39,214 nt of DNA, taken from contig JAJDCD010000016.1 of assembly GCA_029261035.1 (NCBI GenBank), forward strand, positions 1 to 39,214, read 5' to 3'. Below are positions 21,414-39,214 of the stretch, in pieces. A model generated the notes under the pieces. The model was given only the letters and a program-made list of their open reading frames with translations, did no database searches and was not told where the DNA came from. Position 1 is the first letter of the stretch, and every line of letters starts with the position of its first letter. The position numbers were made by a program, and so were the translations under genes. The DNA comes from Candidatus Omnitrophota bacterium (GTDB taxonomy: Bacteria; Omnitrophota; Omnitrophia; Omnitrophales; JACROU01).

Positions 21414-21731
21414 AAAGAATCTCCAAATAAGTAAAATTTATGAGCTAACCACATTGTTACACTAAATAATAATCTTTTATAATAACTTTAACTTAAATGT
21501 ACTAGATTGCCCTCAATGCTTTCTCCATAGTTAAAGTATAACACATTGGGGGGTGTATTATTAATCTGTAAAACCCTATAAAATAAGGGGTTTACAAGCT
21601 ATTTTTGCATTGGATATAGGAGTGCCCAATATTTTGACATATAAGCTTTAATGTAAAAAATAGATACACACCCAAGCAAGCATCTCTCTAAGGGGCCAGG
21701 CCCCAAAAGGGCCTGGCCCCTTAGAATAATT
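21414..21731. other. Intergenic region between the usher-like gene and the giant TpsA
   Basis: This 318-bp gap holds the leader of the giant TpsA gene, read on the minus strand. A GGAG ribosome site lies at 21421-21424. A TATACT hexamer at 21535-21540 (minus) is a weak -10 candidate without a convincing -35 box. The end next to the usher-like gene carries the long hairpin listed separately. An AAACCC/GGGTTT inverted repeat lies near 21570-21595. I see no small gene or riboswitch here. Confidence 0.5.
21688..21724. repeat. Perfect 16-bp GC-rich hairpin, possible orphan REP sequence
   Basis: CTAAGGGGCCAGGCCC at 21688-21703 and its exact reverse complement at 21709-21724 flank a 5-nt loop. The hairpin lies 8 bp past the stop codon of the usher-like gene. 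There is no T-tract on the minus strand after it and only a weak AATAATTTT run on the plus side, so it is not a textbook intrinsic terminator. Its GCCAGGCC core is also the core of the repeats flanking the RAYT gene at 28256-29035, so it may be a scattered member of the same REP family. It could still block transcript decay or elongation. Confidence 0.75.
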
Positions 21732-24653
21732 TTAGCTATTTGAGCTTACTTTTTGGGCGACATATTTTAGGATGGGTTTAAAACCAAAGTCGAAACGTTT
21801 TTTTACGGTAGGTTGTGATGATATTTCAATCTCGAATGTCTCTCTTGAAGTTAATGTATAAGAACCTCTAGTTAGACTTTCATCAACTTGTATTTCATAA
21901 TTTCCGGGAGTTAAACTACGGAAGACATAAAACCCGTCTTTATTCGTCATAATTTCTTCTGAACCTAAACGCACAACAATGCCACTCATTCCTCGTTCAT
22001 CTCCAGACATTCTTCCATTTCCATCAACATCTTCAAACACATAACCTGAGATACTTCTTTGCGCTTTTAGAGGGACATCGTATTCATAAATTTGCCCTGC
22101 GGAAGTATCAAAATCTTTTCTAATAGGAACTAAAGATTGATATCCATCAGGAATACTCATAATACCTAAGTTAACAGAATTCTCTCCAGGTTTTACTTTG
22201 CGAATGTAATAATAACCTTCAGAACTTGTTCTGGCAGACTGTCCAGAACCTAGATTAATTACTACGTTTTGAATAGGCTCATCTAACCCTTCATCATAAA
22301 CTTTATTTTGGTTCACATCGTTAAAGATACGCCCTTTAACTTCGACCTCTGTAGAAACACCAAAGTCGACCGTTAAAGCCTCTTTAGGTAGAACAAAGAC
22401 ATCCTGCGAGCTAGCTGTAGTAAAGAATGCTCCTTGTGGAATTGTAGACTGATCCACCTTTAAGGTTACACTCCCTTCTTTTATTCTCTTCAAACGATAA
22501 CTGCCTTCACTCGTGGTATTAAACGATTTCCCACCTTCGACATAAACCCGGACATCACCGATCCCTGGCTCTCCAGGATCCCTTACTCCATTAATATTAA
22601 TATCCTGAAAAACAACCCCATCAATAGATCCAGGCTGTGGAAATACAAGCTTCGTATCCCATAGAGCTCTTACCCCAGAGAATAAGGTAACTTCAACATC
22701 AGCCTCTCTTCCCACCTTGATTGTTTCTGATTTACGATACCTTATATTCCAATTGGAAAAGACCTCTATTGTATCTGTAATAGGCATTGTAATATTGGCA
22801 ACCCCTTCTAAACGGTCATCATCACTAAAGCTTTGATGAATACGATTAAAGGTATTTCTAACATTTTCATATCTGAAAATAACGTTTACATTCATAGGTT
22901 TAATAATCGGAAACTTTACTTTACGCCCATACCCGAGACTAACCGTGAAACGACTAGGAAAAATACTACCCGGCTCATCGCTCGGTATTTCTTCTTTCAA
23001 AATAGCTTTTGTTAAAGATACATTAGCCGTAAATCCATCAAAAAGACTGGCTCCTACAGAAACTGAGGCTTGCTCTAAACTTGCATCAAATCCAGGGATG
23101 AAAATCGATTTTTCCCACTTATCTCTTTTATTGCCAATAGAAAGATTAATTCTCTTAATACCATATTTATTAATATAAAATGTTTTAGCTAATTTTAAAC
23201 TGTATCCCCAATTAGTAAAAGGCTGAGAGCTTGCACTTTCATCTTTGTAAAAAATACGGCCTCTTAACCTTACTTTAAAAGGAAATCGAACAGAACCTGA
23301 AAGAGAATAAGACTCATTCATTTCACTAAAATTATTAGCATTTCTATCGGTAGTGTCATCAGAAAGAACATTCTGAAAAGTAAGACTTATAGCGTTATTA
23401 AAAAAAGGAGGATTTACATTAACCGTATTCTCCCATCGGGTTTGCCCTTCCGTTCCTATGGTCCCCTCAACAGAACGATACCGCTTAGACACTTTGATAA
23501 AACGCTCTCGGATCGTAACCCACTTCAACGGTCTATACCGAGCATTTAGTCTTACAGCACTTCCAGGACCATTGGTGGCTAACTCTCCATCCAAGGACAA
23601 GTAATCTCTAAATTTAAAATCAAAACCTCCAGAAACCACATTATTGCTTCTTCCAGTAGCGAGTTTCCCATAGCGATTAATCAATATCCCATAGATCTTC
23701 CCCTCATCCCAAAGGTGATATACCACCTTATTCGCCCGAACATGATTGTGCCCTCCTCTAGGTTGAAAACCTGCCCTAGAATCCAATATAGACCCTTGCC
23801 TTACTTGCCCTTCAACATAAGTCCAGTCCAACCTCCCTTTCTTTCCTATTCTTAAACGTGATTTAGCAGGATGAAGCCCAAAACCTCTTATTTTTCTTCC
23901 TCTTAAAGTAAATCGAGTAAAATCTAAAAAATTATCTACCGCAACTAAATCAACCTCTCCAAGAATAGGTGCTTTTACATTCTTTAATTTAAAAGATAAA
24001 TTACGAAGTTGAGTTACCTCTTTTCCGATCGATTTGTCTCTTCGTGATTCAATATAAATATCACTATCAAAATCCCCAAAGGGTAAAGCCATAGTCACCT
24101 TACCTTGATGAACTCGAGTTCTAGTTTCTTCCTGAAGGTCGGGTTGACTGAGCTTAATTCCTGAATCCAGGTTACGATGAGACGCTTCATATCGAATCTT
24201 CAAACTTCTTTGACCGAGATCTAATTTCTGACGGCGAATATTCTCTTTCCCTTTCTTGATCCGTTCTCTAATAATATTTAACTCAACCACGTCAATCCGA
24301 TACGTTCTTATCCCTGACTCATCCAATACATGAATCAAAGAATTTCCTTTTCGAACCCCCTTAAGTTCTACTAAATTATTCAATGCTTTTTCTATTTTAA
24401 GGGCACTTGGATCTAGAATAAGAACACGGGCTTTTCCGATGGTAGGGATAGAAAGTTGTTTCGTTCTTTCAACTTGGAGTATTTCTATCGAAGTAGGACT
24501 AATAGAAGTCACAACTTCAGGATTTGGATTAAAAGAAGATACAACATCTATAGAATGGGCAGAAGGAATATACATCCCTAGGACAAGTAACACCACTAAT
24601 CCTTGAAATGTAAATTTACTATAGAAAAAAAAGATGCCTATTTTATTAAACAT
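21732..24653 (-). CDS. Usher-like outer-membrane protein with secretin/pilus N-domain and SdrD-like C-terminal repeats
   Basis: This 973-residue protein has a signal peptide (about 1-34, cleavage after AHS). At about 45-125 is a domain resembling the secretin/pilus N-terminal family (pil_N type): LVELKGVRKGNSLIHVLDES followed by GIRTYRIDVVE. Residues about 190-675 show alternating, aromatic-rich sequence without hydrophobic helices, as expected of an outer-membrane beta-barrel. Three prealbumin-like SdrD-B-type modules start near 676, 771 and 868 (for example GVVFQDININGVRDPGEPG and GYVFEDVDGNGRMSGDE). Following four small secreted proteins and a chaperone-like gene, it occupies the usher position of a chaperone-usher pilus operon. 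It is not a recognisable FimD/PapC and resembles the alternative (CS1-like) layout more. The usher role is inference. It could instead be a barrel adhesin. ATG 24653 follows AGGGG. Confidence 0.7.
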   Translation of the reverse strand: MFNKIGIFFFYSKFTFQGLVVLLVLGMYIPSAHSIDVVSSFNPNPEVVTSISPTSIEILQVERTKQLSIPTIGKARVLILDPSALKIEKALNNLVELKGVRKGNSLIHVLDESGIRTYRIDVVELNIIRERIKKGKENIRRQKLDLGQRSLKIRYEASHRNLDSGIKLSQPDLQEETRTRVHQGKVTMALPFGDFDSDIYIESRRDKSIGKEVTQLRNLSFKLKNVKAPILGEVDLVAVDNFLDFTRFTLRGRKIRGFGLHPAKSRLRIGKKGRLDWTYVEGQVRQGSILDSRAGFQPRGGHNHVRANKVVYHLWDEGKIYGILINRYGKLATGRSNNVVSGGFDFKFRDYLSLDGELATNGPGSAVRLNARYRPLKWVTIRERFIKVSKRYRSVEGTIGTEGQTRWENTVNVNPPFFNNAISLTFQNVLSDDTTDRNANNFSEMNESYSLSGSVRFPFKVRLRGRIFYKDESASSQPFTNWGYSLKLAKTFYINKYGIKRINLSIGNKRDKWEKSIFIPGFDASLEQASVSVGASLFDGFTANVSLTKAILKEEIPSDEPGSIFPSRFTVSLGYGRKVKFPIIKPMNVNVIFRYENVRNTFNRIHQSFSDDDRLEGVANITMPITDTIEVFSNWNIRYRKSETIKVGREADVEVTLFSGVRALWDTKLVFPQPGSIDGVVFQDININGVRDPGEPGIGDVRVYVEGGKSFNTTSEGSYRLKRIKEGSVTLKVDQSTIPQGAFFTTASSQDVFVLPKEALTVDFGVSTEVEVKGRIFNDVNQNKVYDEGLDEPIQNVVINLGSGQSARTSSEGYYYIRKVKPGENSVNLGIMSIPDGYQSLVPIRKDFDTSAGQIYEYDVPLKAQRSISGYVFEDVDGNGRMSGDERGMSGIVVRLGSEEIMTNKDGFYVFRSLTPGNYEIQVDESLTRGSYTLTSRETFEIEISSQPTVKKRFDFGFKPILKYVAQKVSSNS

Positions 24654-24738
24654 AAACCCCTATGACATATCAAAATCTAGCATAATTATTTAGAAAATGG
24701 ATAGTAAGCTAAGTATTATTATCGACTATTCTAAGTAA

Positions 24739-25599
24739 TTATTTTACTTCAAAATCGATTTCTTTAATCAAAGCTTCTGCACCATCAGGGTTTAATTCAT
24801 AAGTAAGTAGAACTTTGTACTTCCCGGGAGGAATATCACCACTAAATTCCGCCTTTTCACTACCCACATCACCAGGAAAAGACTTAAAACCAGGGAGGGC
24901 TCCTTTTCCATAAAGGCTCCCAGAATCATCCAAAATAAAATAAACACCACTTAGGTCAATGTGCGCATTCCCCGTGTTTTTGAATTCATATTTAATACTG
25001 AGAGGTTTGTCCTCAGAAGGAGGGCTAAAATCCAATTTGGTAATTTCACCTGTTCTTCGAATACTTCCTTGAATTTCAAAAAATACAGACATCCCAATCC
25101 TAGGAATGGTTATCAACTCCGCTTGTTTTTCAGCTTTCTCTTTATCTGAAAACTCTGGAACTCCACGAATAAATAAATAAGCTGCATATCCACCCGATAG
25201 AGCGTTTTCTGGAGGAGACAAAACAAACTTTAAATCAATAAAATTGCCCGGTTTAACAATCGAGCCTTCTCCTTGAAGAATCTGTATCCAACGAGCGCAA
25301 GAATAAGGTGTTGAGCCTAAAGGTTTTGCTTGTCTAATAAGCTGCCCCTCCTTATTTCTTACATTCCCTGTATCACCCACATCCGTAAGAATTTTCATAG
25401 AACTTCCGCCTTCGTTAAAAACACGAACCTGCCCAGAAACAGCTTCTCCCTGTTCACTAACCAATCGAATTCGGCTAGGAGAAATCTTCAAACCTAGGCC
25501 AGCGGCTTCAACTGTAGGAAGCTCCAAAATGGAGATACTTAGAAAAAGAACTACTGGAAACATAAAAATGTGATTAAAACTAAAGTATCTTATCTTCAT
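24739..25599 (-). CDS. Periplasmic pilus-chaperone-like protein
   Basis: The protein has 286 residues and a signal peptide (about 1-32, cleavage after VEA). The mature part reads as two Ig-like beta-sandwich domains. The first (KISPSRIRLVSEQGEAVSG, then VRVFNEGGSSMKI) has the strand order of PapD-like and DUF916-like proteins, including the region SCARWIQIL followed by V-K-P-G. The second (SIKYEFKNTGNAHIDLSGVY, PPGKYKVLLTYEL) also looks Ig-like. No membrane helix follows the signal peptide, so it should be soluble in the periplasm. Its ATG overlaps the stop of the preceding subunit gene by 4 bp (ATGA), indicating translational coupling. Proposed role: holding the small subunits and delivering them to the usher-like protein encoded next. 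The assignment rests on fold-like pattern and context, not on a clear family signature. Confidence 0.65.
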   Translation of the reverse strand: MKIRYFSFNHIFMFPVVLFLSISILELPTVEAAGLGLKISPSRIRLVSEQGEAVSGQVRVFNEGGSSMKILTDVGDTGNVRNKEGQLIRQAKPLGSTPYSCARWIQILQGEGSIVKPGNFIDLKFVLSPPENALSGGYAAYLFIRGVPEFSDKEKAEKQAELITIPRIGMSVFFEIQGSIRRTGEITKLDFSPPSEDKPLSIKYEFKNTGNAHIDLSGVYFILDDSGSLYGKGALPGFKSFPGDVGSEKAEFSGDIPPGKYKVLLTYELNPDGAEALIKEIDFEVK

Positions 25600-26087
25600 T
25601 GCGTCACCACCCTAAATGTTAAGTTTGAACGATAATATCCAGATTTTTGACCTACAGGGACTCTTACGGTATAGGTAATAATCAAACGCTCATCACTCCC
25701 TTGATCATCTGAAATAAAAATTTCAACTTCTCCCTCTTGCAAACTTACCGTACTCGGAAAACGCACCGTCCCGGTTCCGTTACTACTAATAATATAAAAA
25801 TCAACCTCTTCAACAGGAAAGTCTTCTCCTTCTTCATTCTGCCAAGGACCAAACAAACTTTGGTAAACTCGATATATTTTTCCCGAATCATTATCAATTA
25901 CAATCTCAACTTCTCTAACCACATAATCGGATTGAGCTTCCCCTCCAAAGCCTAAACTTTGAGCCTCTCCAAAACTAACGTCCCGACCACCCTGCAACGG
26001 TTGCACATCAATAGCAATTTGACCAAAGACATTACCTGTTGAAAGCAACATAATCAAAAATAGGAATAAAATATTTTTTAATTTCAT
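25596..26087 (-). CDS. Small secreted pilus-subunit-like protein (paralogue of the gene at 26097)
   Basis: The protein has 163 residues and a clear signal peptide (1-22, cleavage VFG/QIAID). The mature protein is beta-rich and has no cysteine. It shares a layout with the neighbour at 26097-26603: YR(V/I)xQS, then F-P-(V/L)-E-(E/K)-V-x-F, then a V-P-V-G or I-P-A-G turn and a final amphipathic strand (RSNLTFRVVTQ here). A P-x-G-x-Y-like turn before a last strand is common in fimbrial subunits. The ATG has an AGGA ribosome site and lies 9 bp after the preceding stop. The stop overlaps the chaperone-like start. Probably a minor or adaptor subunit. I recognise no named family. Confidence 0.65.
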   Translation of the reverse strand: MKLKNILFLFLIMLLSTGNVFGQIAIDVQPLQGGRDVSFGEAQSLGFGGEAQSDYVVREVEIVIDNDSGKIYRVYQSLFGPWQNEEGEDFPVEEVDFYIISSNGTGTVRFPSTVSLQEGEVEIFISDDQGSDERLIITYTVRVPVGQKSGYYRSNLTFRVVTQ

Positions 26088-26096
26088 CTATTTTTC

Positions 26097-26603
26097 CTAA
26101 AACCTTTCCTCTCGAATATCTATTCGAGCCCGGTAATTCCCTGCAGGAATAACTTCTTTTTCGTCTACTAAATAAGATATCGTAAATAGATCAGCATCTC
26201 CATTAGAGTTAGAAACAAAAATCACAGTTGAATCTTTACTCATAGATCGTTCTCCTGTGACCTGAGAAACACCTCCGTTTTTACCATCACTCACTAGAAA
26301 TCGAACCTTCTCCAAAGGAAAAATAAAACCAGATTCATTTTCAAAATCATCCTGAACCGACTGAACAATGCGATAAGAATTACTTTCATTCGTTTTAATA
26401 TTAACCTCAAGAGACTGAAGAACCCTTTGTCCTCCAGGATAAATTGGGCCTAATGTTATGTTCCCTCCCTCTTGTGTTTGTATATCTAAAGCAAATGCAG
26501 GTGAAATCTCAATTTCAAAAGCTACCGTTTGCGTATCTGAATCCTGAGCATACGCTGTTGTAGCAAAGAGTAGAAAAGTAATTAAAATTAATTTAAATCT
26601 CAT
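26097..26603 (-). CDS. Small secreted pilus-subunit-like protein
   Basis: I prefer the ATG at 26603 (168 residues) to the upstream ATG at 26624. The later start has a GAGG site 8 nt upstream and gives a compact signal peptide, MRFKLILITFLLFATTAYA, cut before QDSDTQ. The longer form would overlap the previous gene by 11 bp and add a charged leader. The mature protein is beta-rich, with a central SYRIVQSVQ and a C-terminal IPAGNYRARIDIRE strand resembling the last strand of fimbrial subunits. It is a clear paralogue of the next gene (25596-26087). Spacings of about 10 bp on both sides mark it as part of one operon. No named family recognised. Confidence 0.65.
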   Translation of the reverse strand: MRFKLILITFLLFATTAYAQDSDTQTVAFEIEISPAFALDIQTQEGGNITLGPIYPGGQRVLQSLEVNIKTNESNSYRIVQSVQDDFENESGFIFPLEKVRFLVSDGKNGGVSQVTGERSMSKDSTVIFVSNSNGDADLFTISYLVDEKEVIPAGNYRARIDIREERF

Positions 26604-26613
26604 AAAACAAACC

Positions 26614-27150
26614 TCACTGTCCATCCACTATGGTTAGTGTTAAAATTTGAGCATCGGTCCCAGCAGGCATTACAGAGTTAAGCGTTCCCTTCCAAGTAAT
26701 CGTCAATGTTCCATCAATACAAATATCTCCTTGTCCTGTCCCTGGGGTTTTATCCGCTAAGTCCGTAGTCGTTGTTGCAATAGTTACAAAACCTCCTGAG
26801 GACTCTGCCAAAGAAGCAAAACTAGGGTCTCCAAGATTAGAATAAGAATCCACATCTCCTTTAAAATCAACATGTTCAAAATCATCGGAAAGAGCTGCTG
26901 AAATGGCTCCATTGATTGTTCCTGCAGCCATAGTGTTAGATTGAACGGTATAAACGACTTGCTCTGAATTACTATCGGTACCAGGGAGGAAGTTGGGAAA
27001 CTCTAAAACAATAACTCCAACAGAAGCAGAAATACTCAATACAGGAGGAGCTCCAACAGTCAAAATAACAGCCCCTGCATTAATGGGCCACATAAGCAGT
27101 CCCAAAAAAAGGGCCCCGCAGCAAAAAAATTTAGAATGTAATGTTTTCAT
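26614..27150 (-). CDS. Small secreted pilus-subunit-like protein
   Basis: The protein has 178 residues with a signal peptide (1-27, cleavage INAGA/VIL). The mature part is beta-rich, G/T/S-rich and has one cysteine (GDICIDGTLTITWKGTL). It ends in a P-A-G-T turn and a final strand, ILTLTIVDGQ. The overall plan matches the first gene of the cluster (27361-27939): both have a (T/S)-x-K-G-T-L-(N/T)-S motif about 20 residues from the end and finish TLT(I/V)-(V/N)-D. They may therefore be divergent paralogues. An AGAGGG ribosome site precedes ATG 27150. It is the first gene after the terminator at 27232-27273. Probably a minor or tip subunit. No named family is certain. Confidence 0.6.
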   Translation of the reverse strand: MKTLHSKFFCCGALFLGLLMWPINAGAVILTVGAPPVLSISASVGVIVLEFPNFLPGTDSNSEQVVYTVQSNTMAAGTINGAISAALSDDFEHVDFKGDVDSYSNLGDPSFASLAESSGGFVTIATTTTDLADKTPGTGQGDICIDGTLTITWKGTLNSVMPAGTDAQILTLTIVDGQ

Positions 27151-27215
27151 AATAATCCCTCTAAATCATAAGACGAAACCTAAATCATTCTATTCGCAAC
27201 TTATTGTATAGATCT

Positions 27216-27221
27216 ATTATA
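27216..27221 (-). promoter_or_regulatory. Candidate -10 box for the distal pilus genes
   Basis: A perfect TATAAT lies on the minus strand just downstream of the terminator and about 65 bp upstream of the gene starting at 27150. No good -35 hexamer sits 16-18 bp away. It may be a weak internal promoter or a chance match in AT-rich DNA. Confidence 0.3.
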
Positions 27222-27231
27222 GCGAATAATA

Positions 27232-27273
27232 AAAAAACGGGAACACAAAACATTCTCTGTGTTCCCGTTTTTT
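27232..27273. terminator. Strong intrinsic terminator after the first pilus-subunit gene
   Basis: A perfect 16-bp inverted repeat (AAAAAACGGGAACACA and its complement, 27232-27247 and 27258-27273) encloses a 10-nt loop. On the minus strand the GC-rich stem is followed by a run of T residues, so it should end transcripts from the gene at 27361-27939. The A/T flanks are symmetric, so it could work in both directions. Partial read-through would give less transcript for the five genes downstream. Confidence 0.9.
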
Positions 27274-27360
27274 AGAGAGACTTCTCTATCCTAAGAAGTA
27301 GCTCCTTCTTTTTATTACTATGCGCATATAATTATGTTACAACCCAAACATTAACTTAGA

Positions 27361-27939
27361 TTATGCATCATTAACAGTTAATGTAATTGTAGCTGTTTCT
27401 CCACTAAATGCTGGTTGTGCTGATGTTAACGTACCTTTAACTGAAAAAGGTATCGTAGCATCAATGGTCTGTTTCGCCCCGGCTGCAACTACTGCCTTTG
27501 CTACTAAATTAGTTGGAGAAGTAGTCAAAGTTGTAAAAGCACCAGATGAATCAGATAAATCAGTAGCGTCTAAACCACCGCTACCCCCATTTTCTGTTAA
27601 ACCAGCAGAGTTAGGGTCAATCTTAATGTCGATAAAACTGATAGCTGCATCAATAGCACCCGTAACAAAATTCGATAACGCACCTACGACAACAGCATTT
27701 CCAACAATCGTCGCATTTAAGGTAATCGTATCAGAATCTGTTCCAGAAGCTTCATCGGCGAAATCCATTGTTGTATCACCGCCTGATGCTGCTGTTACAA
27801 TGGATAGTGATGATTGTTGTTGCATCGTCACCAAACTACCTCCATCATTTGCAGTAGCAGCCCAAACATTAGATGTACCCAACCCAAATGAAAGCCCAAA
27901 TATCAACATAGAAACTAGCATTATTTTTGGAATCTTCAT
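27361..27939 (-). CDS. Probable major pilus subunit (secreted, riboswitch-controlled)
   Basis: The protein has 192 residues with a signal peptide (1-27, cleavage NVWA/ATAND). The mature part is rich in A, G, T, S and D, has no cysteine, and alternates like a beta-sandwich. It ends in FSGETATITLTVNDA, a last strand like those of fimbrial subunits. It is the first gene of the cluster, preceded by a promoter and a GEMM-like riboswitch and followed by a strong terminator, an arrangement that would make it the most abundant product. AAAGGAGAG lies 6-10 nt before ATG 27939 and can be masked by an upstream complementary stretch. The major-subunit role is inference from position and composition. I cannot assign a protein family. 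Confidence 0.65.
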   Translation of the reverse strand: MKIPKIMLVSMLIFGLSFGLGTSNVWAATANDGGSLVTMQQQSSLSIVTAASGGDTTMDFADEASGTDSDTITLNATIVGNAVVVGALSNFVTGAIDAAISFIDIKIDPNSAGLTENGGSGGLDATDLSDSSGAFTTLTTSPTNLVAKAVVAAGAKQTIDATIPFSVKGTLTSAQPAFSGETATITLTVNDA

Positions 27940-27946
27940 GAGAGTC

Positions 27947-27990
27947 TCTCCTTTCGCTTTCGCGTTAATTATTTAGAATCGAAAAGGAGA
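27947..27990 (-). promoter_or_regulatory. Shine-Dalgarno-sequestering hairpin in the pilus leader
   Basis: On the minus strand TCTCCTTTTCG (27980-27990) can pair with CGAAAGGAGA (27947-27956), leaving one bulged base. The second arm contains the ribosome site of the gene starting at 27939. This would form a translational expression platform for the upstream aptamer. Pairing was read by eye. Confidence 0.6.
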
Positions 27991-28037
27991 ATTGCTTGGG
28001 GCTACTTTACCCAATAATGGAAGGTGTTCTTATACCC

Positions 28038-28149
28038 AAAATTCGGTAGCCGGGCTGCCATTGAAGACCCCTTGCTTTGCCATGATCCTTTATAGGTTCA
28101 TGTCCCCTAACTTCAGGGAGTCCCATCTTTTCAGATGGTTTGCCATTTT
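28038..28149 (-). promoter_or_regulatory. GEMM-I (cyclic di-GMP-I)-like riboswitch aptamer with an insertion
   Basis: Read on the minus strand, the hallmarks occur in order. GGCAAACC (28137-28144) opens the P2 hairpin CCATCT-GAAA-AGATGG (28123-28138), which has a GNRA tetraloop, and is followed by GGGAC (28120-28124). Next come GCAAAGC (28074-28080), GGGGTCTT, and CAGCCCGGCTACCGA ending at about 28042. A short closing stem AAAAT/ATTTT joins 28145-28149 with 28038-28042. The class I cyclic di-GMP riboswitch normally runs GGGACGCAAAGC without a break. Here 39 nt (28081-28119) able to form two small hairpins are inserted. The first G of GGCAAACC, which I align with the base that separates cyclic di-GMP from cGAMP binders, is G, favouring cyclic di-GMP. 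Ligand identity is inference. Confidence 0.78.
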
Positions 28150-28174
28150 CGATTCAGATTTTTTATTTGTTTCT

Positions 28175-28209
28175 ATTATAAGTATCCCCCATAAATCACC
28201 ATAAGTCAA
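28175..28209 (-). promoter_or_regulatory. Sigma70-type promoter of the pilus cluster
   Basis: On the minus strand TTGACT (28204-28209) is separated by 17 bp from GATACT (28181-28186). A perfect TATAAT follows immediately (28175-28180) and may be the true -10 with a poorer -35. Either start would place the transcript about 20-35 nt before the riboswitch aptamer. Confidence 0.55.
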
Positions 28210-28255
28210 ATCCAAACACAAACCCTAACTCATTTATCTATAACACCTTACCCAC

Positions 28256-28303
28256 CCAAAGTGCCAGGCCTTTCACCTCAAAATTGTAGCAAAGTGCCAG
28301 GCC
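28256..28303 (+). repeat. Left 48-bp inverted repeat of the RAYT element
   Basis: This arm contains two direct copies of CAAAGTGCCAGGCC (starting at 28257 and 28290) separated by TTTCACCTCAAAATTGTAG. Its reverse complement occurs at 28988-29035 with a single mismatch (47 of 48). It resembles a REP-doublet arrangement, with the cores GTGCCAGGCC at 28261 and 28294. Confidence 0.9.
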
Positions 28304-28373
28304 TTTCATAATTAAGAGAAAATAAATTATTATTTTATTTAAATTTTATTATTTATTTTATATAATTATAATT

Positions 28374-28967
28374 ATGGGAAGAGGGCCAAGAAACTTATAT
28401 CCAGGAGCTTATTACCACGTATACAATCGTGGAGTAAATAAGCAAAAAATAGTATTTGATAATGAAGATAAAAACCTATTTATCCAACTTTTGTGTAAAT
28501 CTATAAGAGAATATGATGCAAATCTAATTTCCTTCTGTCTTATGGATAACCATTTCCATTTATTTCTACAAACAAAGCTTCCAAATCTTAGTAATGCAAT
28601 GTGGTTCTTTTCTTCCCGTTTTGCCTATTTGATTAATGAAAAATACAATCGAGTCGGTCCGCTTTTTCAAGGAAGGTTCAAATCACGTGATGTTCAGGAA
28701 GAACTCTATGGGAAAGTATTACTTAGATATATACATAATAATCCATGCGATGCACATATAGTTTCAGCAGCTGATCAATACAAATGGTCTAGTTTTAATT
28801 GTTATTCTGATAAAAATTTAAGTTGGGATTTTATAGACACAAGAAATGGGTTTTTATTTTTTGATAAAAATCCACAAAGAGCAAAAATGGATTTTATGGA
28901 ATTTCATGCACAACACCCTTCTATAAATTTAGATGCCAGATTGAGAAACATGCGTTGTTCTCTCTAA
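28374..28967 (+). CDS. REP-associated tyrosine transposase (RAYT, Y1/HUH family)
   Basis: This 197-residue protein belongs to the IS200-like Y1 transposase superfamily. It has N-terminal YHVYNRGVNKQKIVFD, the metal-binding HxH at residues 60-62 in MDNHFHLFLQ, GPLFQGRFKS near 95-104, and YGKVLLRYIHNNP with Tyr112 as the probable catalytic tyrosine. It ends the family core with YKWSSF. These motifs are intact, so the enzyme could be active. Family knowledge: RAYTs nick and move short REP hairpins. The inverted 48-bp repeats on both sides are the likely substrate. It is the only plus-strand gene and sits between the tpsB pair and the pilus promoter. The leader is extremely AT-rich and no Shine-Dalgarno site is visible before ATG 28374. 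Confidence 0.9.
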   Translation: MGRGPRNLYPGAYYHVYNRGVNKQKIVFDNEDKNLFIQLLCKSIREYDANLISFCLMDNHFHLFLQTKLPNLSNAMWFFSSRFAYLINEKYNRVGPLFQGRFKSRDVQEELYGKVLLRYIHNNPCDAHIVSAADQYKWSSFNCYSDKNLSWDFIDTRNGFLFFDKNPQRAKMDFMEFHAQHPSINLDARLRNMRCSL

Positions 28968-28987
28968 AATTAATAGATTAATTCAAT

Positions 28988-29035
28988 GGCCTGGCACTTT
29001 GCTACAATTTTGTGGTGAAAGGCCTGGCACTTTGG
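28988..29035 (-). repeat. Right 48-bp inverted repeat of the RAYT element
   Basis: This is the reverse complement of 28256-28303 with one mismatch. It holds two GGCCTGGCAC cores (28988-28997 and 29021-29030). It ends 14 bp from the stop codon of the TpsB gene at 29050. Confidence 0.9.
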
Positions 29036-29049
29036 AGGGGTATGAAGGT

Positions 29050-30768
29050 CTAGATGTCCATGCGGATGGTGAAGTGGAGTCTGGAGTGATCTGATTCTGT
29101 GAGGGGTTCGTTTCCTAGGGCATGTGCAAAAATGAGGTCAAGGAACATGTATTTGTAGAGTCTCATTCTAAGGCCTGCGCCTGCTCCCAATAGAAAGCGG
29201 GACCGCACTTCAAATTGAGAAGGGCCTTTTAAGCGACCATAAGCTGCATCCAAAACAGATAATAGCTGCATACGATCTTTTATCACCGTATTCGTAAATG
29301 GAAAAGTTAAATTTTTAGGAATAAAAAAGGCAGGCATCACATACTCAATAGAAGCTAATACGCCTTGGTCTGCCAAATAGTCCCCTTCAGGATAACCTCG
29401 AACTGTATTTGCTCCTCCTAAATAAAATTGCTCTTGTGGAAATAACTTTCCTTTTGATAATTGAAATTCTAAATCAATGTTTGCTTGAGTCCCAAAAGGC
29501 ATAATCTGACTTCGAGATATAGAACCATTGAATCTAGCTAAATTAGGTTCAGCGCCTCTCCTTCCCGAAAATGGATTATTTACCCCCGAAGCACCAAACC
29601 CCTGAATCCCAAAAGACAACTCTCCATTGAGTCGTGTCACACCATAACGGTCTTGAACCGTTCCTTCAATGGAAGGTCTCAAAATTCGAAGTCTATCTCT
29701 ACGACTAGTACCAATAACACTTGTGGTTACGTTATCTTTAAAATCAAACACAGCTTGCGCATGAGAGGTAATGCGTTCATTCTCAAATAGAAGCTGTCTT
29801 AATGTGAGGGAGTATGTTTTAGAAATTCCCTGAATATCCGATCCCTTAGAGGCTCTCTTAGGGGCCACCGAAGAATAACTAAAACTAGGAATTAATTGCG
29901 TTCCAAAAGGACCAATAGGAATTAAATATTGGGCATAGACCACTCCAAAATCTTTACCAAATACAGTCCCCGTTTGTAAGGTACTATCAGGGATAATAAA
30001 GTTCGTATGGCGCGCATTGAAACCTATCCGTTTTCTTCCCGTGGATCGAACTCCTTGTTGATCAAATTGAAAACCCGCATGCAATGGGAATCTATCTTGT
30101 ACTTTTAAATAAATATCGGTGGATCCTGTATCTTCTCCTGGTCTCATAATGGCCTGAACCGATCGATCTGGGTTCTCATTCATCCTCCGAACACTTACCG
30201 CTAACTGCTCATATTTTAAATTCTCTCCTTCTTTTAAACGTGAATATCTTCGGATAGACTTTTCAGAAAACCACTTATTTCCTTCAATAATCGTTTTTCC
30301 TACTTTACCTTCAACAACTTGAATAAGCAGCTTCTGATCTTTAACTTTTTGAGGCGGAACATAACAAATCGCGGTAACAAAACCTTTGGTACGATATATG
30401 TTCTGGATCTCTGAGGCTAAATCATTAGCTTCGCTCAGCTTAATTTCTTTTCCTTCATAATTGGAAATCAAAACAACCAAATCAGAAGTAGGAATTGCTT
30501 CATTTCCTGCAATCTCAATAGAATCTACATAAAAACTTATATCTTGGTCAACGGCAGCTTGTTGAGGACGTTCAGGTTCAACGATTTGAGGACGTTCAGG
30601 ACGGGAAAGTAATTGTTTCCTTGCGTCTCGATTTACTTGGGATTCAATCGTTGCTGCATCAGCGCTAGCAGGGGGTTCAATTACTTGTTGAGCAAAAGCT
30701 GCATTGCTAAATAAGAATAAGCTTAAGCTTAAGAAGAAAAAAACCTGTTTAAAAAATTTAGACAACAT
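29050..30768 (-). CDS. TpsB outer-membrane transporter (ShlB/FhaC family), second of tandem pair
   Basis: The protein has 572 residues with a signal peptide (1-26, cleavage AFA/QQ). A proline-rich linker of about 50 residues follows. POTRA domain 1 (about 79-152) starts FYVDSIEIAGNEAIP and contains YRTKGFVTAICYVPPQ. POTRA 2 follows with EGNKWFSEKSIRRY. The rest is a beta-barrel containing the family signature TVRGYPEGDYLADQG, the conserved VRGY loop, and it ends in a strand finishing LHFTIRMDI. The TpsB function is to recognise the TPS domain of a TpsA in the periplasm and export it. It lies 57 bp after the paralogous gene at 30826, so the two are probably co-transcribed. The cognate TpsA may be either giant protein of this window. 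This cannot be decided from sequence. Confidence 0.92.
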   Translation of the reverse strand: MLSKFFKQVFFFLSLSLFLFSNAAFAQQVIEPPASADAATIESQVNRDARKQLLSRPERPQIVEPERPQQAAVDQDISFYVDSIEIAGNEAIPTSDLVVLISNYEGKEIKLSEANDLASEIQNIYRTKGFVTAICYVPPQKVKDQKLLIQVVEGKVGKTIIEGNKWFSEKSIRRYSRLKEGENLKYEQLAVSVRRMNENPDRSVQAIMRPGEDTGSTDIYLKVQDRFPLHAGFQFDQQGVRSTGRKRIGFNARHTNFIIPDSTLQTGTVFGKDFGVVYAQYLIPIGPFGTQLIPSFSYSSVAPKRASKGSDIQGISKTYSLTLRQLLFENERITSHAQAVFDFKDNVTTSVIGTSRRDRLRILRPSIEGTVQDRYGVTRLNGELSFGIQGFGASGVNNPFSGRRGAEPNLARFNGSISRSQIMPFGTQANIDLEFQLSKGKLFPQEQFYLGGANTVRGYPEGDYLADQGVLASIEYVMPAFFIPKNLTFPFTNTVIKDRMQLLSVLDAAYGRLKGPSQFEVRSRFLLGAGAGLRMRLYKYMFLDLIFAHALGNEPLTESDHSRLHFTIRMDI

Positions 30769-32822: not shown

Positions 32823-35800
32823 TTATGCTTTGGATGAAGCTTCAGGAGTTCCGTTGATTTGTTCAAAGTAGAAGTTGAAATCGTACGTTCCTGCAGATGG
32901 ATTATATTCAAAGATATGTTTCACTATAAAATATTTGTCGTCTGGCGTTTTAAATAGGCTTGATGCCAACCTCAAACGACGATCTAGTTTATGTAACATA
33001 TTTTCAACAATAAGATTGTTAGCAAAGAGTCCAAATTTATTATAGTTCTTCACCTTAACAATATCTGAAAAATTAAGTCCTGAACCCTTTTGATCTTTTG
33101 CTGTTAAAGAAGAGGCTCCAAAGTTCATCGTATAAGAAATTGTAAGATCTAAATCTTTTTGTTGATCATCAGAAAAAAGTAAAGACAAATCAAAAGTAAA
33201 CTGCATAAAGTCTCCACCTTCAATAAACCCTGTATCGGAGTCTACTAGAATCTTTTCAGCCAATAGAGAATCAGCCAAAGCTCCATAACGTCCTACATTT
33301 TCAAGCTTAAAGAAATCCCCTTCTCCTAAACCTAAAATACTTATTAAATTTAGAGGGGATGATAATAGCTGAAGAGCTTGATCCCCCTGAAGAAGTAAAT
33401 CTTCAAACCAAGCATCCAAATCAATCAACGATTTACCAAATGGGATTCCATCATTTTCAAAACTTTCTAAGGCAGTAAAAAGTCCTGCTAAAATATCTTC
33501 AGAAAGAGCAAATGGAGGAAGAACAGAACTTGATGCTACAGGAAGTGGGAATAACAATATTCCATTGAAGTAAACTTCTCCACCGTAAGGAAGAGATAAT
33601 GCTAATGTGTTCGTTGGAGTAACCGTTCCATTCACATTAACAGAAATTCCAGCAGCATTAACACCTGGAGCAAACACGGTTAAAGAACCCCCAATCACAT
33701 TAACATCTACAGAAGTTGCTGCCCCACCCACAAGACCACCACTAATCGTTCCTAATGCTCCTGTTGCAGTTAATGTAGAATTTCCATTCGCAGTAAAGTT
33801 ATTTGCTGCTCCATTGTTATCAATAATAGATGAGCCGTCCGTTGCAGAAACATCAAAACTACCACCCGTAGCTGTAATCGTTGTTACCGTAATATCTCCA
33901 GCACCATTAAAGGTTACATTCCCCGCACCCGTATTAATATTCTGAATATCAACAGCACCTGTTTGATTAATTGCAATATTTCCTGTTGTTGTCGTAGCAG
34001 TCAATACATTTACGGCTGTTTCAAGAGCTCCTGGGTTACCAATAGCTGTTGCTGCAGTTAGAACCAAAACGTTAGCCGTAATATCTACAGTTCCATCTGT
34101 TCCTATTTCTTCAATACGTTCAGCAGAAGTAATTGTCACGTTACCAGTCGTATTTACAATATCTACATTCACATCTCCAGAACCTGTTGTAGTCAACATA
34201 ATGTCTGCACCTGGAACACTGGCATCAACCTCTGTTGCATTCAAAGCACCATTATTTGATGTCAAATCAATATTTCCGGTATCCGTTGCTTGAGCTGCAT
34301 TAACGTTCATACCCCCTTCTGAAGTAGATGTTAGAGAATTCCATGTTTCAGCAGAAGCATAAGTAATCACACCGTTTGTTGCGTTCGCCGTTAAGTCCAC
34401 ATCGCTTACTGTTCCACCAAAAAGAACGCCTCCAGTTCCAATTGTAAGAGCTCCCATTTGATTTAATGTAATATCTCCACCATCCGCATTAACAGCCAAA
34501 CTACCTCCTGCTGTTTGTTCTATACCAGCATTGGTAGCTGTTAAATTAATATTTGCAGCATTAAGATCTGCAGTACCATATTCAATCCCTCCAACACCTG
34601 TTGTGCTCCAATCTAAAGTGTTAGCCCCTTGCACATTAATTGTTCCTGTTCCTGTAGCATCAATCGTTCCGGTAATCGTATTGTTTGTAGTAAAATTTCC
34701 ACCATCCACATTTAATGTTCCGCTAACATTAAGGTCTACTGAGTTTGAATCTTGAATATCTAATCCATTGGTGTTCGCATTCAACGTTGTCGCTGTTAAA
34801 GTAACTCCAGCACCTTCAGCATCAATGGTACTAGCGAGTGTAATTGTGTCATTCGCCTGTAAGGTCACTCCCGTTCCTGTTAAACTTCCAATAATTACAT
34901 TTGCTCCACCTGCATTCGCTGTTACGGTGACAGCCCCCGTAGCCGTTAACGTATTCGTGCCGGCTGCAATATTTCCTGTAGTTGCTTGCAAAGTTATCAC
35001 TCCGTTATCCGCTGTTTGAGAATTACTAACAACAACTCCTGTTCCACCCGTTACAGCAAGACTATTTAAATTAAATCCATCCGCTATAGTAATCTGTCCT
35101 GCACTCGTACCAGATAAATCAATATGGGTTATGGTGCCTCCTAATAAAACCCCTCCAGTTCCAATAGTAAAATCGGGAGTTTGGTTCAACAAGACATCTC
35201 CTCCATCTGCATTAACAGCTAAACTTCCGCCAACACCTTGTGAAATTGTAGCTCCGACATTCGTTGTATTTAATGTGATACTTGAAGCATTAAGGTCTGC
35301 ATTACCATAGCTAATTCCTCCAGCACCACTCGTGCTCCAATTTAAACTATTCGCTCCTTGTACATTAACTGTTCCTGTCCCTGTAGCATCAATTGTTCCA
35401 GTAACTGCATTATTGGCTGTAAAATCACCACCATCTACATTTAACGTTCCGCTAATATTAAGGTCTACTGAGTTTGAATCTTGAATATCTAATCCATTGG
35501 TATTTGCATTCAAAGTTGTTGCTGTTAGCGCAACAGCGCCACCTTCAGCATCAATGGTGCTAGACAATGTAATTGTATCTGTTGCATTTACAGTCACACT
35601 ACTTCCTGTCATGCTGCCTAAGGTAATGTCAGCAGCAGCTGTTCCATCTATTGCTGTAACCGTTACAGACCCTGTAGCAACTAAGTTGTTAGCTCCACCA
35701 GCAATCGCTCCATTTGTTGCTGCAATATTAATATTTCCGTTGTCTGCAGATTGTCCACCACTTAACACAATTCCATTTTGACCCGTAGTGATCAATGCAT

Positions 35801-38800
35801 TCCAAACACTTGTACTTAAGTAAGTAACAACTCCGCCCGTTGAGAAAACACCCAAATCAATATCCGCAATGTTCCCACCAAATCCAATTCCTCCAGCCCC
35901 AATCGTAATACTTCCAGCTTGCGTTAACGTTACATCCCCGCCATCCCCATCCACTTCTAATGTTCCTGTAGCTGTTTGAGTAATAGATCCCGCACTTGCT
36001 GTCAAAATAATATTTGCTGCATTAAGATCTGCATTACCATAGGTAATACCACCAGCACCACTCGTGTTCCAATTCAAGTCATTCGTTCCCAAAACATTAA
36101 TGGTAGTTGATCCCGTTGCATCAATCGTTCCTGTAACTGAATTATTAACTGTAAAACTTCCTCCATTTACATTCGTGGTACCAATATTAAGGTCTACGCT
36201 ATTAGAATCTTGTATATCTAACCCACTAGCTGTTGCATTCAATGTTGTCGCTGTCAACGCAACAGCTCCTCCTTCTGCATCTAATATGCTAGAAAGGTTA
36301 ATCTCATTGTTAGCGCTTACGGTGATTCCATTTCCAGTTAAACTTCCTAAGGTTACATCACTTCCTGCTGAGTTCGCATTCACGATAACAGAGCCAGCTC
36401 CAACCAAATTATTATTGCCTGCATTTATATTTCCTGTTGTTGCTGTAACACTGATATTACCTGTATCCGTTGTTTGGGTTCCACTAATAACAACCCCTGT
36501 TTGTCCTGTAGATGTAAGTGAGTTTAAGTTTTGAGCTCCTGTTATTGTCACAAGCCCAGCTGTTGAGTTTGCAGTTAAATCTATATCCGCACTTGTTCCC
36601 CCGAGAAGAACTCCACCAGCACCTAACGTCAGTGCTGCTGATGTATTTAAGGCAATATCTCCACCATTTGCATTTACACTCAAACTTCCACCAACTCCTT
36701 GCTGGACACTTCCAGCTGTTGTGGTTAAATTAATATTTCCTGCATTAACATCTACGTTTCCATAGGTAATTCCTCCAGCACCACTCGTTTGCGCTGTAAA
36801 GTTATTAGCACCTACTACATTTACTGCTGTTGATCCTGTTAAGTCAATTGTTCCGGTGATTGCATTATTAATCGTATAGTCTCCACCGTTTACATTCGTA
36901 GTACCAATATTAAGATCCACTGAGTTTGAATCTTGAATATCTAATCCGCTCGTTGTTGCATTCAGTGTGGTAGCTGTTAAATTAACAAACCCACCTTGAG
37001 CATCTAAAGTACTTGATAATGTAATCGTATCATTTGCAGTTACTGTAATTCCATTACCTGTTAAACTACCTGCTGTAACATTTCCACCCAGGCTATTAGC
37101 AATTAAGGACAAAGAACCTATAGAAGTAAAATTGTTGCTGCCTGCATTTATATTTCCAGCAGTTGATTCAAGGAATAGATTTCCAGTTACATTTATTCCG
37201 ACATTAATATTAAGGTTATTTGCTACTTGCAATGTAATTACATCACCACTTACATTTTCATCCACGGTTAAATCTGCTGTTGAATTAATTTCAACATCAC
37301 CCGTTCCAGCATCAACCCCATCCAATCCTCCAACTCCACCTATAATCAAACTTCCTGTATTATCAATAAATACTCCACCCGTATTCGTGCTGGCTTCAAG
37401 GTTACTTAAAACAGTTTCAATAGGATTAATCAGCGTACCTATTCCTGTATCTGATATAAAACTAGCCCCACTCGCTGTAAGGTTATTTGTAGCTCCATTA
37501 TCATCCACAACACTTCCGTTAGTAGCTTCTAAATTAATAGTATCTGGAGCGTTGATCACACCCAAATTAATATCTGCTGTATCTGCTGTAAGGTTGACAT
37601 CATTTCCAGCACCGGTAACAAGAACATCTACAACTTGGATTCCACCACCAGAAGAAAAATTAAACGTTCCATCCACAACATCAATATCTTGTAATATTAA
37701 TTCATTTGATTCGGATATATGAACATCCCCAGAAGTACTCGAATTTAAATTTAACGTATCTGCAGAAATTTGAAATGGATTAATTAATGTTCCAAGACCT
37801 GAAACAACATTTACAGTTAAATCTGTTGCTGAAACATCAACAGATGCTGTGCCCCCCGTTACCGTTCCGAGTTGAGCCGTTAAACTTACTGCTAATGTTG
37901 AATCGATTCTTGCATTTCCACTAAACGCTATAGCATCCGTTGCTATACTTGCCGAGTTAACCGTAGCAACATCATTAAATGTTGTCGTACCAGAACCATC
38001 CACCTGAGTTAAAGCTCCTACCAAGTTGACAGTCTCCAAATTCACATTTCCGGCATTGCTGATAGTAAGAAATTCTAACGCTACCAAACCACCAACAGCA
38101 GAATTAAAAGTAATAGAGCTAATTCCTATATCTAAAGTAAGCCCTTCATCTGCTCCTCCTGCCGTTCCATCAATAGTGTCTGAAAAAGAAACCACTCCAT
38201 CTGTTACATCGTTGGTATCCACAACTACATCAGCACCTAAAACCACAGGGCCATTTACAGTAACATTTCCACCGTCTGTCGTTAGATTGGCATTCAAATT
38301 AACTGAACCATCCGTTGCATCTAAAATAAGTTCTGATTGATTTGTTGTATTAAGAGCACCACTCACGGTGATACTTCCACCTACTTGTGGGGATTGTATA
38401 GTTACATCTGAATCAAAAGTTACCGTGTTTACGGTAACAGCACCATCTCCATCTGTTCGACCTATCGTAATAGAATTAAAGATGCCCATTGCTGCCAAAT
38501 CTGTAAGGGTAATGTCTAAAGGAGCTCCTGAATCAGCTGCTCCGCCCACAACTACCGCTTGTGAAGCTGTCGCTGGCTGTAACGTAATAGTTGTTCCTGT
38601 AACGGTATCAACTCCACCTAAGAAGTCAATTTCTCCTCCAATAAATATTGAATCCCCACCCCCATTTACATCTCCGTTATATTCTTGTAACCCTGTGCTT
38701 GTCATATCCATATCTGTTGCCGTAACATCACTGTTTGCTGTAAAAGTTGTAGAGTCTACAGTTAACGTAGTACCCACAATTAATTCATCATCAAAAAGAA

Positions 38801-39214
38801 TAGCGGTTCCCGTTAAGTCAGCAAAAAATACAATATCTGTAAAGAAATGATCTTGAGTTCCTGTTGTTACTACTGTAAAGGAGTCTGCTTCTGTTTGATT
38901 ATTTTCTAAACTTCCTGCTTGAATATCGACTAAACCACCCGCTTCTAATTGGTCATACTGTACTAAACCAGTAACATCTACAGTTAATATGTCTAAATCA
39001 TACTCAGCTCCTGTAAAAAATGCTCCTGTGACATCCACAACATCTCCACTATTAATATCGTTAATATTCACACCACCTGTTCCATCTAAATCTATTCTAT
39101 TTCCATCAGCATCAATATCTCCTGAGATAAATATCTGACCTACCGTACTAGTTAAAGTTACATCTGTAGTCAGTGCTATAAAACTGTTAAAGGACATACT
39201 TGGTGCTGTTATAT
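32823..39214 (-). CDS. Large filamentous-haemagglutinin-like TpsA exoprotein (N-terminus beyond right edge)
   Basis: The frame is open through the right edge. The first ATG in the window (39197) is preceded by in-frame codons for ITAPS, so it is probably internal, and the signal peptide and TPS domain should lie further right. At least 2129 codons are present. The protein is T/G/N/D-rich beta-helix-type sequence. Near 38460 it has one unit related to the array of the giant TpsA (TDLAAMGIFNSITIGRTDGD). The middle holds four tandem repeats of about 243 residues with GLDIQDSNSVDLN. The last 280 or so residues are non-repetitive, more hydrophobic and lysine-bearing (LSLLFSDDQQKDLDLTISYT, LHKLDRRLRLASSLFKTP), unlike the rest. 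It precedes two tpsB genes on the same strand and is probably secreted through one of them. Likely an adhesin or matrix protein. Its target is unknown. Confidence 0.88.
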   Translation of the reverse strand, partial: ITAPSMSFNSFIALTTDVTLTSTVGQIFISGDIDADGNRIDLDGTGGVNINDINSGDVVDVTGAFFTGAEYDLDILTVDVTGLVQYDQLEAGGLVDIQAGSLENNQTEADSFTVVTTGTQDHFFTDIVFFADLTGTAILFDDELIVGTTLTVDSTTFTANSDVTATDMDMTSTGLQEYNGDVNGGGDSIFIGGEIDFLGGVDTVTGTTITLQPATASQAVVVGGAADSGAPLDITLTDLAAMGIFNSITIGRTDGDGAVTVNTVTFDSDVTIQSPQVGGSITVSGALNTTNQSELILDATDGSVNLNANLTTDGGNVTVNGPVVLGADVVVDTNDVTDGVVSFSDTIDGTAGGADEGLTLDIGISSITFNSAVGGLVALEFLTISNAGNVNLETVNLVGALTQVDGSGTTTFNDVATVNSASIATDAIAFSGNARIDSTLAVSLTAQLGTVTGGTASVDVSATDLTVNVVSGLGTLINPFQISADTLNLNSSTSGDVHISESNELILQDIDVVDGTFNFSSGGGIQVVDVLVTGAGNDVNLTADTADINLGVINAPDTINLEATNGSVVDDNGATNNLTASGASFISDTGIGTLINPIETVLSNLEASTNTGGVFIDNTGSLIIGGVGGLDGVDAGTGDVEINSTADLTVDENVSGDVITLQVANNLNINVGINVTGNLFLESTAGNINAGSNNFTSIGSLSLIANSLGGNVTAGSLTGNGITVTANDTITLSSTLDAQGGFVNLTATTLNATTSGLDIQDSNSVDLNIGTTNVNGGDYTINNAITGTIDLTGSTAVNVVGANNFTAQTSGAGGITYGNVDVNAGNINLTTTAGSVQQGVGGSLSVNANGGDIALNTSAALTLGAGGVLLGGTSADIDLTANSTAGLVTITGAQNLNSLTSTGQTGVVISGTQTTDTGNISVTATTGNINAGNNNLVGAGSVIVNANSAGSDVTLGSLTGNGITVSANNEINLSSILDAEGGAVALTATTLNATASGLDIQDSNSVDLNIGTTNVNGGSFTVNNSVTGTIDATGSTTINVLGTNDLNWNTSGAGGITYGNADLNAANIILTASAGSITQTATGTLEVDGDGGDVTLTQAGSITIGAGGIGFGGNIADIDLGVFSTGGVVTYLSTSVWNALITTGQNGIVLSGGQSADNGNINIAATNGAIAGGANNLVATGSVTVTAIDGTAAADITLGSMTGSSVTVNATDTITLSSTIDAEGGAVALTATTLNANTNGLDIQDSNSVDLNISGTLNVDGGDFTANNAVTGTIDATGTGTVNVQGANSLNWSTSGAGGISYGNADLNASSITLNTTNVGATISQGVGGSLAVNADGGDVLLNQTPDFTIGTGGVLLGGTITHIDLSGTSAGQITIADGFNLNSLAVTGGTGVVVSNSQTADNGVITLQATTGNIAAGTNTLTATGAVTVTANAGGANVIIGSLTGTGVTLQANDTITLASTIDAEGAGVTLTATTLNANTNGLDIQDSNSVDLNVSGTLNVDGGNFTTNNTITGTIDATGTGTINVQGANTLDWSTTGVGGIEYGTADLNAANINLTATNAGIEQTAGGSLAVNADGGDITLNQMGALTIGTGGVLFGGTVSDVDLTANATNGVITYASAETWNSLTSTSEGGMNVNAAQATDTGNIDLTSNNGALNATEVDASVPGADIMLTTTGSGDVNVDIVNTTGNVTITSAERIEEIGTDGTVDITANVLVLTAATAIGNPGALETAVNVLTATTTTGNIAINQTGAVDIQNINTGAGNVTFNGAGDITVTTITATGGSFDVSATDGSSIIDNNGAANNFTANGNSTLTATGALGTISGGLVGGAATSVDVNVIGGSLTVFAPGVNAAGISVNVNGTVTPTNTLALSLPYGGEVYFNGILLFPLPVASSSVLPPFALSEDILAGLFTALESFENDGIPFGKSLIDLDAWFEDLLLQGDQALQLLSSPLNLISILGLGEGDFFKLENVGRYGALADSLLAEKILVDSDTGFIEGGDFMQFTFDLSLLFSDDQQKDLDLTISYTMNFGASSLTAKDQKGSGLNFSDIVKVKNYNKFGLFANNLIVENMLHKLDRRLRLASSLFKTPDDKYFIVKHIFEYNPSAGTYDFNFYFEQINGTPEASSKA
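34270..37160 (-). repeat. Four tandem repeats of about 727 bp in the second TpsA
   Basis: The anchor GAATCTTG on the plus strand, within the codons for GLDIQDSNSVDLN, occurs at 34747, 35476, 36205 and 36928, giving periods of 729, 729 and 723 bp, all multiples of three. Each unit also contains a G(I/V)TL/V-type motif followed by ANDTITL, then a NWSTSGAGGI(T/S)YGNADLNA-like motif and a GGVLLGGT-like motif. Copies 1 and 2 are visibly similar at the nucleotide level around the anchor. Confidence 0.88.

Follow-up and report, generated by a model that had tools for sequence, protein, structure and literature searches.

Anatomy of the element and its surroundings

The stretch of DNA analyzed here (the window) is 39,214 nucleotides long and makes up an entire contig (C8) of a Candidatus Omnitrophota genome, which was assembled to 2.70 Mb in 26 contigs. 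Positions 28256-29035 of the window form a compact unit of 780 bp, in which an open reading frame (ORF) for a RAYT/TnpA-REP-type Y1/HUH transposase lies inside 48-bp inverted arms. The unit and its immediate neighbors are laid out as follows.

24739 to 27939, minus strand: operon of secreted, pilus-type proteins (so named in an earlier note on the window), starting 316 bp from the left arm
28236 to 28257, no strand: left outer flank, with weak inverted similarity (15/22) to 29034-29055
28256 to 28303, plus strand: left arm, with cores at 28258-28270 and 28291-28303 and, between them, a spacer with GTAG at its end
28374 to 28967, plus strand: RAYT/TnpA-REP-type Y1 transposase of 197 aa, assigned from its ORF, family models, and predicted fold
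28988 to 29035, minus strand: right arm, repeating the left arm in inverted orientation (47/48), with cores at 28988-29000 and 29021-29033
29034 to 29055, no strand: right outer flank, which takes in the native ATC TAG end of TpsB1
29050 to 30768, minus strand: TpsB-type outer-membrane protein (TpsB1), presumed, with 14 bp between its stop and the right arm

The product of 29050-30768 is taken to be TpsB-type on the identification made in the earlier note. The left arm and the reverse complement of the right arm are identical at 47 of 48 positions, and each arm carries two direct GTGCCAGGCC cores located 33 bp apart. The earlier note, which was made from the letters of the window, had described the intact Y1 transposase, the nearly identical inverted arms, and the two direct cores in each arm, all of which were confirmed. 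Its placement of the unit between the TpsB gene and the pilus operon was likewise correct, the element following the TpsB stop after 14 bp and lying 316 bp upstream from where the first pilus-type gene starts. A giant TpsA-like open frame occupies positions 1-21413 and runs off the contig start, and a second repetitive protein, of 2124 aa, is encoded at 32823-39197.

A weaker inverted-repeat extension continues outward from the arms and matches at 15 of 22 positions, a level seen in 7 of 200,000 pairs of random windows, although the 22-position stretch was picked after being seen. This outer similarity may stem from the target flank having been copied in inverted form. The possibility that the right end of the element supplies the TpsB stop codon was ruled out, as the end of TpsB1 (HFTIRMDI) resembles that of its paralogue (HFTLQLDI).

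The transposase protein

The protein encoded at 28374-28967 passes the cut-off of the Pfam model Y1_Tnp (43 bits against a cut-off of 23) and scores 58.3 bits with the NCBIfam model REP_Tyr_transpos (NF047646), under its equivalog cut-off of 80. The HUH and Y...NP motifs are present as NHFH and YIHNNP, and H60, H62, and Y119 are invariant across 27 aligned sequences, many of which were cut to the matched stretch. The AlphaFold2 model of the protein has a mean pLDDT of 91.1 and a pTM of 0.87. A fold search of the PDB with this model placed the REP-bound RAYT 4er8 first (E value of 9.2e-8), and a sequence-profile search of the PDB also ranked 4er8 first (E value of 5e-7); the single sequence gave no match in the PDB.

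The available portion of PMC6006769 discusses five residues of E. coli TnpA-REP in connection with the GTAG guide, namely W94 (described there as of unclear role), Q95, E100, H101, and R104. When mapped by hand, their counterparts in the window RAYT are F98, Q99, S104, R105, and Q108, so that one of the five (Q95) is kept. Because four of these five residues are replaced, repeat recognition by the window RAYT must differ. By the motifs NHFH, FQ, and YIHNNP alone, the protein would fall between the published subclasses 2.1 and 2.6 (Table 1 of PMC6006769, within the portion available).

Dispersed cores and hairpins

The earlier note had proposed a genome search for the 14-bp core and for the whole 780-bp unit. 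The core proved to be present in multiple copies, whereas the whole unit has no second copy in the genome; the longest other match to it is the RAYT gene on contig C15 (67% over 406 bp). The 13-mer AAAGTGCCAGGCC, with at most one mismatch, has 20 matches in 2.70 Mb versus 1 for the reversed control, and the exact 14-mer AGTGCCAGGCCTTT is rarer, with 4 matches (3 of them inside the element) versus 0 for the reversed control; copies may be missing from these counts because the genome is 94.8% complete. The 20 matches comprise 4 within the element and 16 at nine other loci, eight of which hold hairpins of three kinds.

C16:92702, C16:204429, and C19:4492: head-to-head core pairs of 54 bp, with 37-bp spacing
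C16:421064: compound copy of three cores, with spacings of 35 and 33
C16:605534, C15:8241, C26:2379 with C26:2516, and C4:35357: short hairpins, five at four loci, with the core pairing at C4:35357 and C26:2516 judged by eye

The ninth locus (C16:468546), a lone mismatched core within a 531-aa ORF, was taken as a chance match and removed from the family. At six of the eight hairpin loci, no ORF of at least 70 aa runs across the core, and at the other two, C15:8241 and C16:92702, the only ORFs across the core (126 and 95 aa) are antisense to a longer ORF. From C19:4492 to the contig end, the sequence repeats the C16:92702 hairpin and the start of its downstream gene with scattered differences. 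The downstream bases match at 62 of 74 positions up to the contig end and the upstream flank at 15 of 59, a pattern suggesting that C19:4492 may be an assembly-edge duplicate of C16:92702; it was kept in the family but is doubted. The family is therefore small, with approximately seven independent dispersed loci.

With DNA parameters, the folding energy is -1.2/-1.4 kcal/mol for a lone core and -5.8 to -8.6 kcal/mol for a whole arm, which is a direct doublet. On either strand, the values for the three 54-bp pairs are -18.7 to -28.3 kcal/mol; the compound copy reaches about -34.5 kcal/mol, and the three short hairpins that were folded, of the five, range from -13.0 to -15.0 kcal/mol. Since the lone core and the arm fold weakly and the pairs strongly, the strong hairpin is formed by a head-to-head pair of halves. 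The element repeats this arrangement on a larger scale, its outer halves pointing toward each other across about 700 bp that include the gene. When the two outer arm halves were fused by script, the product matched the three 54-bp pairs at 46 to 49 of 54 positions in either orientation, with gaps and at a junction of the analyst's choosing; the match is no proof that the pairs descend from the element, because near-palindromes align well regardless. The comparison is nonetheless suggestive of dispersed hairpins that derive from the element by loss of its gene-bearing middle, and the dispersed inverted pairs look like REPINs, that is, two outer arm halves joined without the gene. Among the 30 of 72 matching papers listed by a literature search for the core, no title concerned a repeat of this kind.

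Repeats that can form hairpins and that lie between two transcription units could also simply terminate transcription, or act as insulators, on either side of a small gene, and the earlier note had suggested that the element insulates or influences the flanking operons. No terminator-like site was found in 27850-29150 (1.0 expected in shuffles), and promoter-like sites around the element were at chance level (6 versus 5.3 in shuffles). Moreover, the arms are direct doublets with the modest folding energies given above, and their sequence is dispersed in mixed contexts. We regard a terminator or insulator role as extremely improbable, and the suggested insulation of the neighboring operons was not borne out.

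Four RAYTs with four repeats

A Y1_Tnp family search of the genome returned four matches, hence four RAYTs, and each has a different flanking repeat. The repeats are listed below with their matches in the genome and in the control at up to two mismatches, counts in which the C18 and C16 patterns cross-hit and some near-palindromic cores appear twice, once per strand.

Window RAYT: GTGCCAGGCC inverted doublets, dispersed
C15 RAYT (C15:54395-54922): TTTGGGCCCGGGCCT, direct orientation, 27 matches versus 1 in the control
C18 RAYT (C18:332816): GTGACTGTCAC, arms 82% complementary, 141 matches versus 7 in the control
C16 RAYT (C16:193129): AAGGGACAGTCCCCTAGGGGGACAGGT, 27/27 inverted, 86 matches versus 6 in the control

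Dispersed pairs of the C15 repeat include C16:270685 and C18:310150. The C18 family, at no more than one mismatch, has 73 matches, among which are 23 neighboring pairs less than 100 bp apart, 19 of them inverted. The pair spacings cluster at 17-18 bp (10 pairs) and 36-39 bp (6 pairs, one in the other orientation), near two of the spacings of the window family (17 and 37).

In a tree that took 65 of 68 RAYT rows (three rows shorter than 140 aa were excluded), the window RAYT and the C15 RAYT are sisters with support of 100/99, and they share 53% identity over 176 residues. Their repeats are unlike in both sequence and orientation, that of the C15 RAYT being a directly repeated palindrome. A tentative proposal, which we hold to be possible but doubtful, is that the sisters have split their targets between an inverted GTGCCAGGCC doublet and a direct GGGCCCGGGCC palindrome, each with a hairpin population of its own, and that the hairpins are deletion derivatives with fused outer halves, so that a RAYT element would itself amount to a large REPIN whose loop contains the gene.

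The gene could instead be a fixed, domesticated RAYT with another function in the cell, such as single-strand DNA processing, and the hairpins could be old remnants or RNA 3′-end or regulatory structures. The gene is indeed single-copy, with an intact ORF and invariant catalytic residues, and three copies of the repeat lie 12-14 bp past an ORF stop (the window TpsB, C16:204429, and C16:421064, the ORFs at the last two being mechanical calls), a position at which a hairpin could protect the mRNA. This explanation is rather unlikely, as four RAYTs and four dispersed repeats in one genome argue for partner pairs, and the gene is kept at the same place in no relative among the 57 seen. The earlier note had held that single-copy arms at the same location in all relatives would indicate a fixed domesticated gene; the cores are in fact multicopy, and none of the 57 relatives shows the unit.

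Gene order and the question of insertion

The TpsB gene leads directly to a TpsA-like gene, without a RAYT, in the paralogue on contig C21 and in two other genomes (G013 and G029), with ORF gaps of 364, 177, and 127 bp, respectively; TpsB genes on contig C3 and in G011 have arrangements of other kinds. In the window (21413-29050), the RAYT unit and the pilus-type operon separate TpsB1 from the giant TpsA-like gene, which is likely its partner. In another genome (G001), the pilus operon adjoins a TpsA-like gene on a 9.8-kb contig that is without a RAYT. By sequence comparison, this gene order fits an insertion between TpsB1 and the TpsA-like gene, with an exact empty site not demonstrable because the TpsB proteins are 45-50% identical. 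A composite transposon carrying the pilus operon was considered and rejected: the contig holds no core (with at most one mismatch) beyond the four in the arms, and therefore the operon is not enclosed between the arms.

The RAYT-free arrangements in C21, G013, G029, and G001, together with the compactness of the unit and the 47/48 match of its arms, are what would be expected of an autonomous insertion sequence that transposes as a 780-bp unit like IS200/IS605 and recently inserted beside the TpsB gene. However, the genome holds one copy and no near-identical ones, and at the DNA level the element was seen in 0 of 57 relatives, none of them of the same genus (no more than nine first-look candidates were scored per genome). 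The gene-order difference also fails to isolate the RAYT unit, because the entire pilus operon differs as well. Furthermore, the window RAYT has Y-x-x-x-N-P, as opposed to the Y-x-x-x-Q given for IS200 in the available text of PMC6006769. We therefore consider an autonomous insertion sequence very unlikely, and the earlier suggestion that the whole unit could be mobile found no support, given its single genomic copy.

Comparison with known systems

Two of the papers used for comparison, PMC2817692 and PMC3116915, are presumably those of Nunvar et al. (2010) and Bertels and Rainey (2011), respectively. RAYT genes between inverted repeats, with several per genome and a repeat of their own for each, are described in the available parts of PMC2817692 and PMC6006769 (Quentin et al. 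2018). The window element resembles these REPtrons in all of these respects and in the combination of a low-copy gene with dispersed repeats, and the inverted repeats that flank its gene are found again elsewhere in the genome, in extragenic positions. It differs from canonical REPtrons, as the same sources present them, in that no single hairpin has GT[AG]G at its foot, GTAG/GTGG lying instead in the spacer, in its few copies, and in the replacement of most of the residues discussed for GTAG (PMC6006769). The REPIN, proposed as the spreading unit in the available text of PMC3116915, has its likeness in the dispersed inverted doublets of the window family, which are extragenic and multicopy and fold to one long hairpin. 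The window pairs are shorter, however (37 bp start to start versus 71 bp for GI), the window family is much less numerous, and a half on its own scarcely forms a hairpin.

Members that have TIRs at their flanks and do not belong to the GTAG class were described as TIRtrons/TIRYTs by Di Nocera et al. 2013 (PMC3733652). In the part of that paper available to us, TIRtrons, like the window element, have a RAYT-like Y1 gene enclosed by long inverted repeats, further copies of the repeats are scattered singly, as dimers, or in groups, and several such genes with differing repeats occur per genome. The window arms, which are direct doublets, lack the GGGGWSAS of some (not all) TIRs, although the arms of the C16 RAYT in the same genome carry GGGGACAG. 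The window element has long terminal inverted repeats that are not GTAG REPs and that recur as dispersed dimers. Since GTAG is not at the hairpin foot and one of the five GTAG-discussed residues is kept, the TIR-flanked class appears to be its best fit. IS200/IS605 elements (IS608 and ISDra2) share the HUH/Y1 fold with the window RAYT, but the window element differs in its long inverted arms, its single copy, and its Y-x-x-x-N-P motif.

The earlier note had read the arms as REP doublets. This reading stands insofar as a RAYT is framed by doublets that are also dispersed, but the arms are not canonical GTAG-footed REPs, because the single core folds so weakly. The note had also posed a choice between a mobile unit and a domesticated gene. 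A single-copy gene and dispersed repeats were both seen; the choice is not a clean one, because the available portions of PMC2817692, PMC3116915, and PMC8266576 treat the short repeats as the mobile part.

Because the unit is single-copy, the cores are dispersed as hairpins, and the four RAYTs have differing repeats, we conclude that the element is very probably a REPtron of the terminal-inverted-repeat kind (TIRtron), the protein of which would spread short GTGCCAGGCC hairpins while the gene stays single-copy. As a HUH single-strand endonuclease/ligase, the protein most likely binds its cognate GTGCCAGGCC hairpins in single-stranded DNA, and it would cut and rejoin them via Tyr119. It plausibly acts in trans on the dispersed hairpins. 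Short, nonautonomous, REPIN-like hairpins, with the outer arm halves head to head, would arise through loss of the gene-bearing middle and spread into intergenic DNA. Strand-specific cleavage and joining of REP DNA are reported for E. coli TnpA-REP in the available part of PMC8266576 (2021).

The element belongs to a known kind; its repeats are dispersed, and nothing points to movement of the gene. RAYT/REP systems are a standard example of a low-copy transposase tied to a dispersed repeat family, and the element is otherwise ordinary, its most useful feature being the sister RAYTs with unlike repeats. The four RAYT-repeat pairs, two of the RAYTs being sisters, are matched sets for mapping repeat recognition by protein and hairpin swaps in vitro.

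RAYT loci in other genomes

A RAYT homologue is present in 40 of the 57 other genomes. Among the first-look candidates scored in these relatives, just two DNA matches to the element reached E ≤ 0.001, one of 24 and one of 27 bp, and both fall inside the gene. A repeat family common to the relatives was rejected, as the exact core occurs 7 times in the 57 genomes versus 9 for the reversed control, which is chance level. In one genome of the same order, two exact cores form an inverted pair 17 bp apart (G027:C132:33437 and 33454), and this pair is possibly a related hairpin and an exception to the chance-level result.

The best repeat shared between the two flanks exceeded the maximum of 15 shuffles by at least 5 at 44 of 68 RAYT loci and failed to do so at 24. 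The loci that passed include all four in the genome studied here, 22 of 29 in the relatives, and 18 of 35 among the named RAYTs (35 of 43 named loci entered the comparison); some of the flanks compared were cut by contig ends. This frequency of flanking repeats broadly agrees with published REPtrons and TIRtrons.
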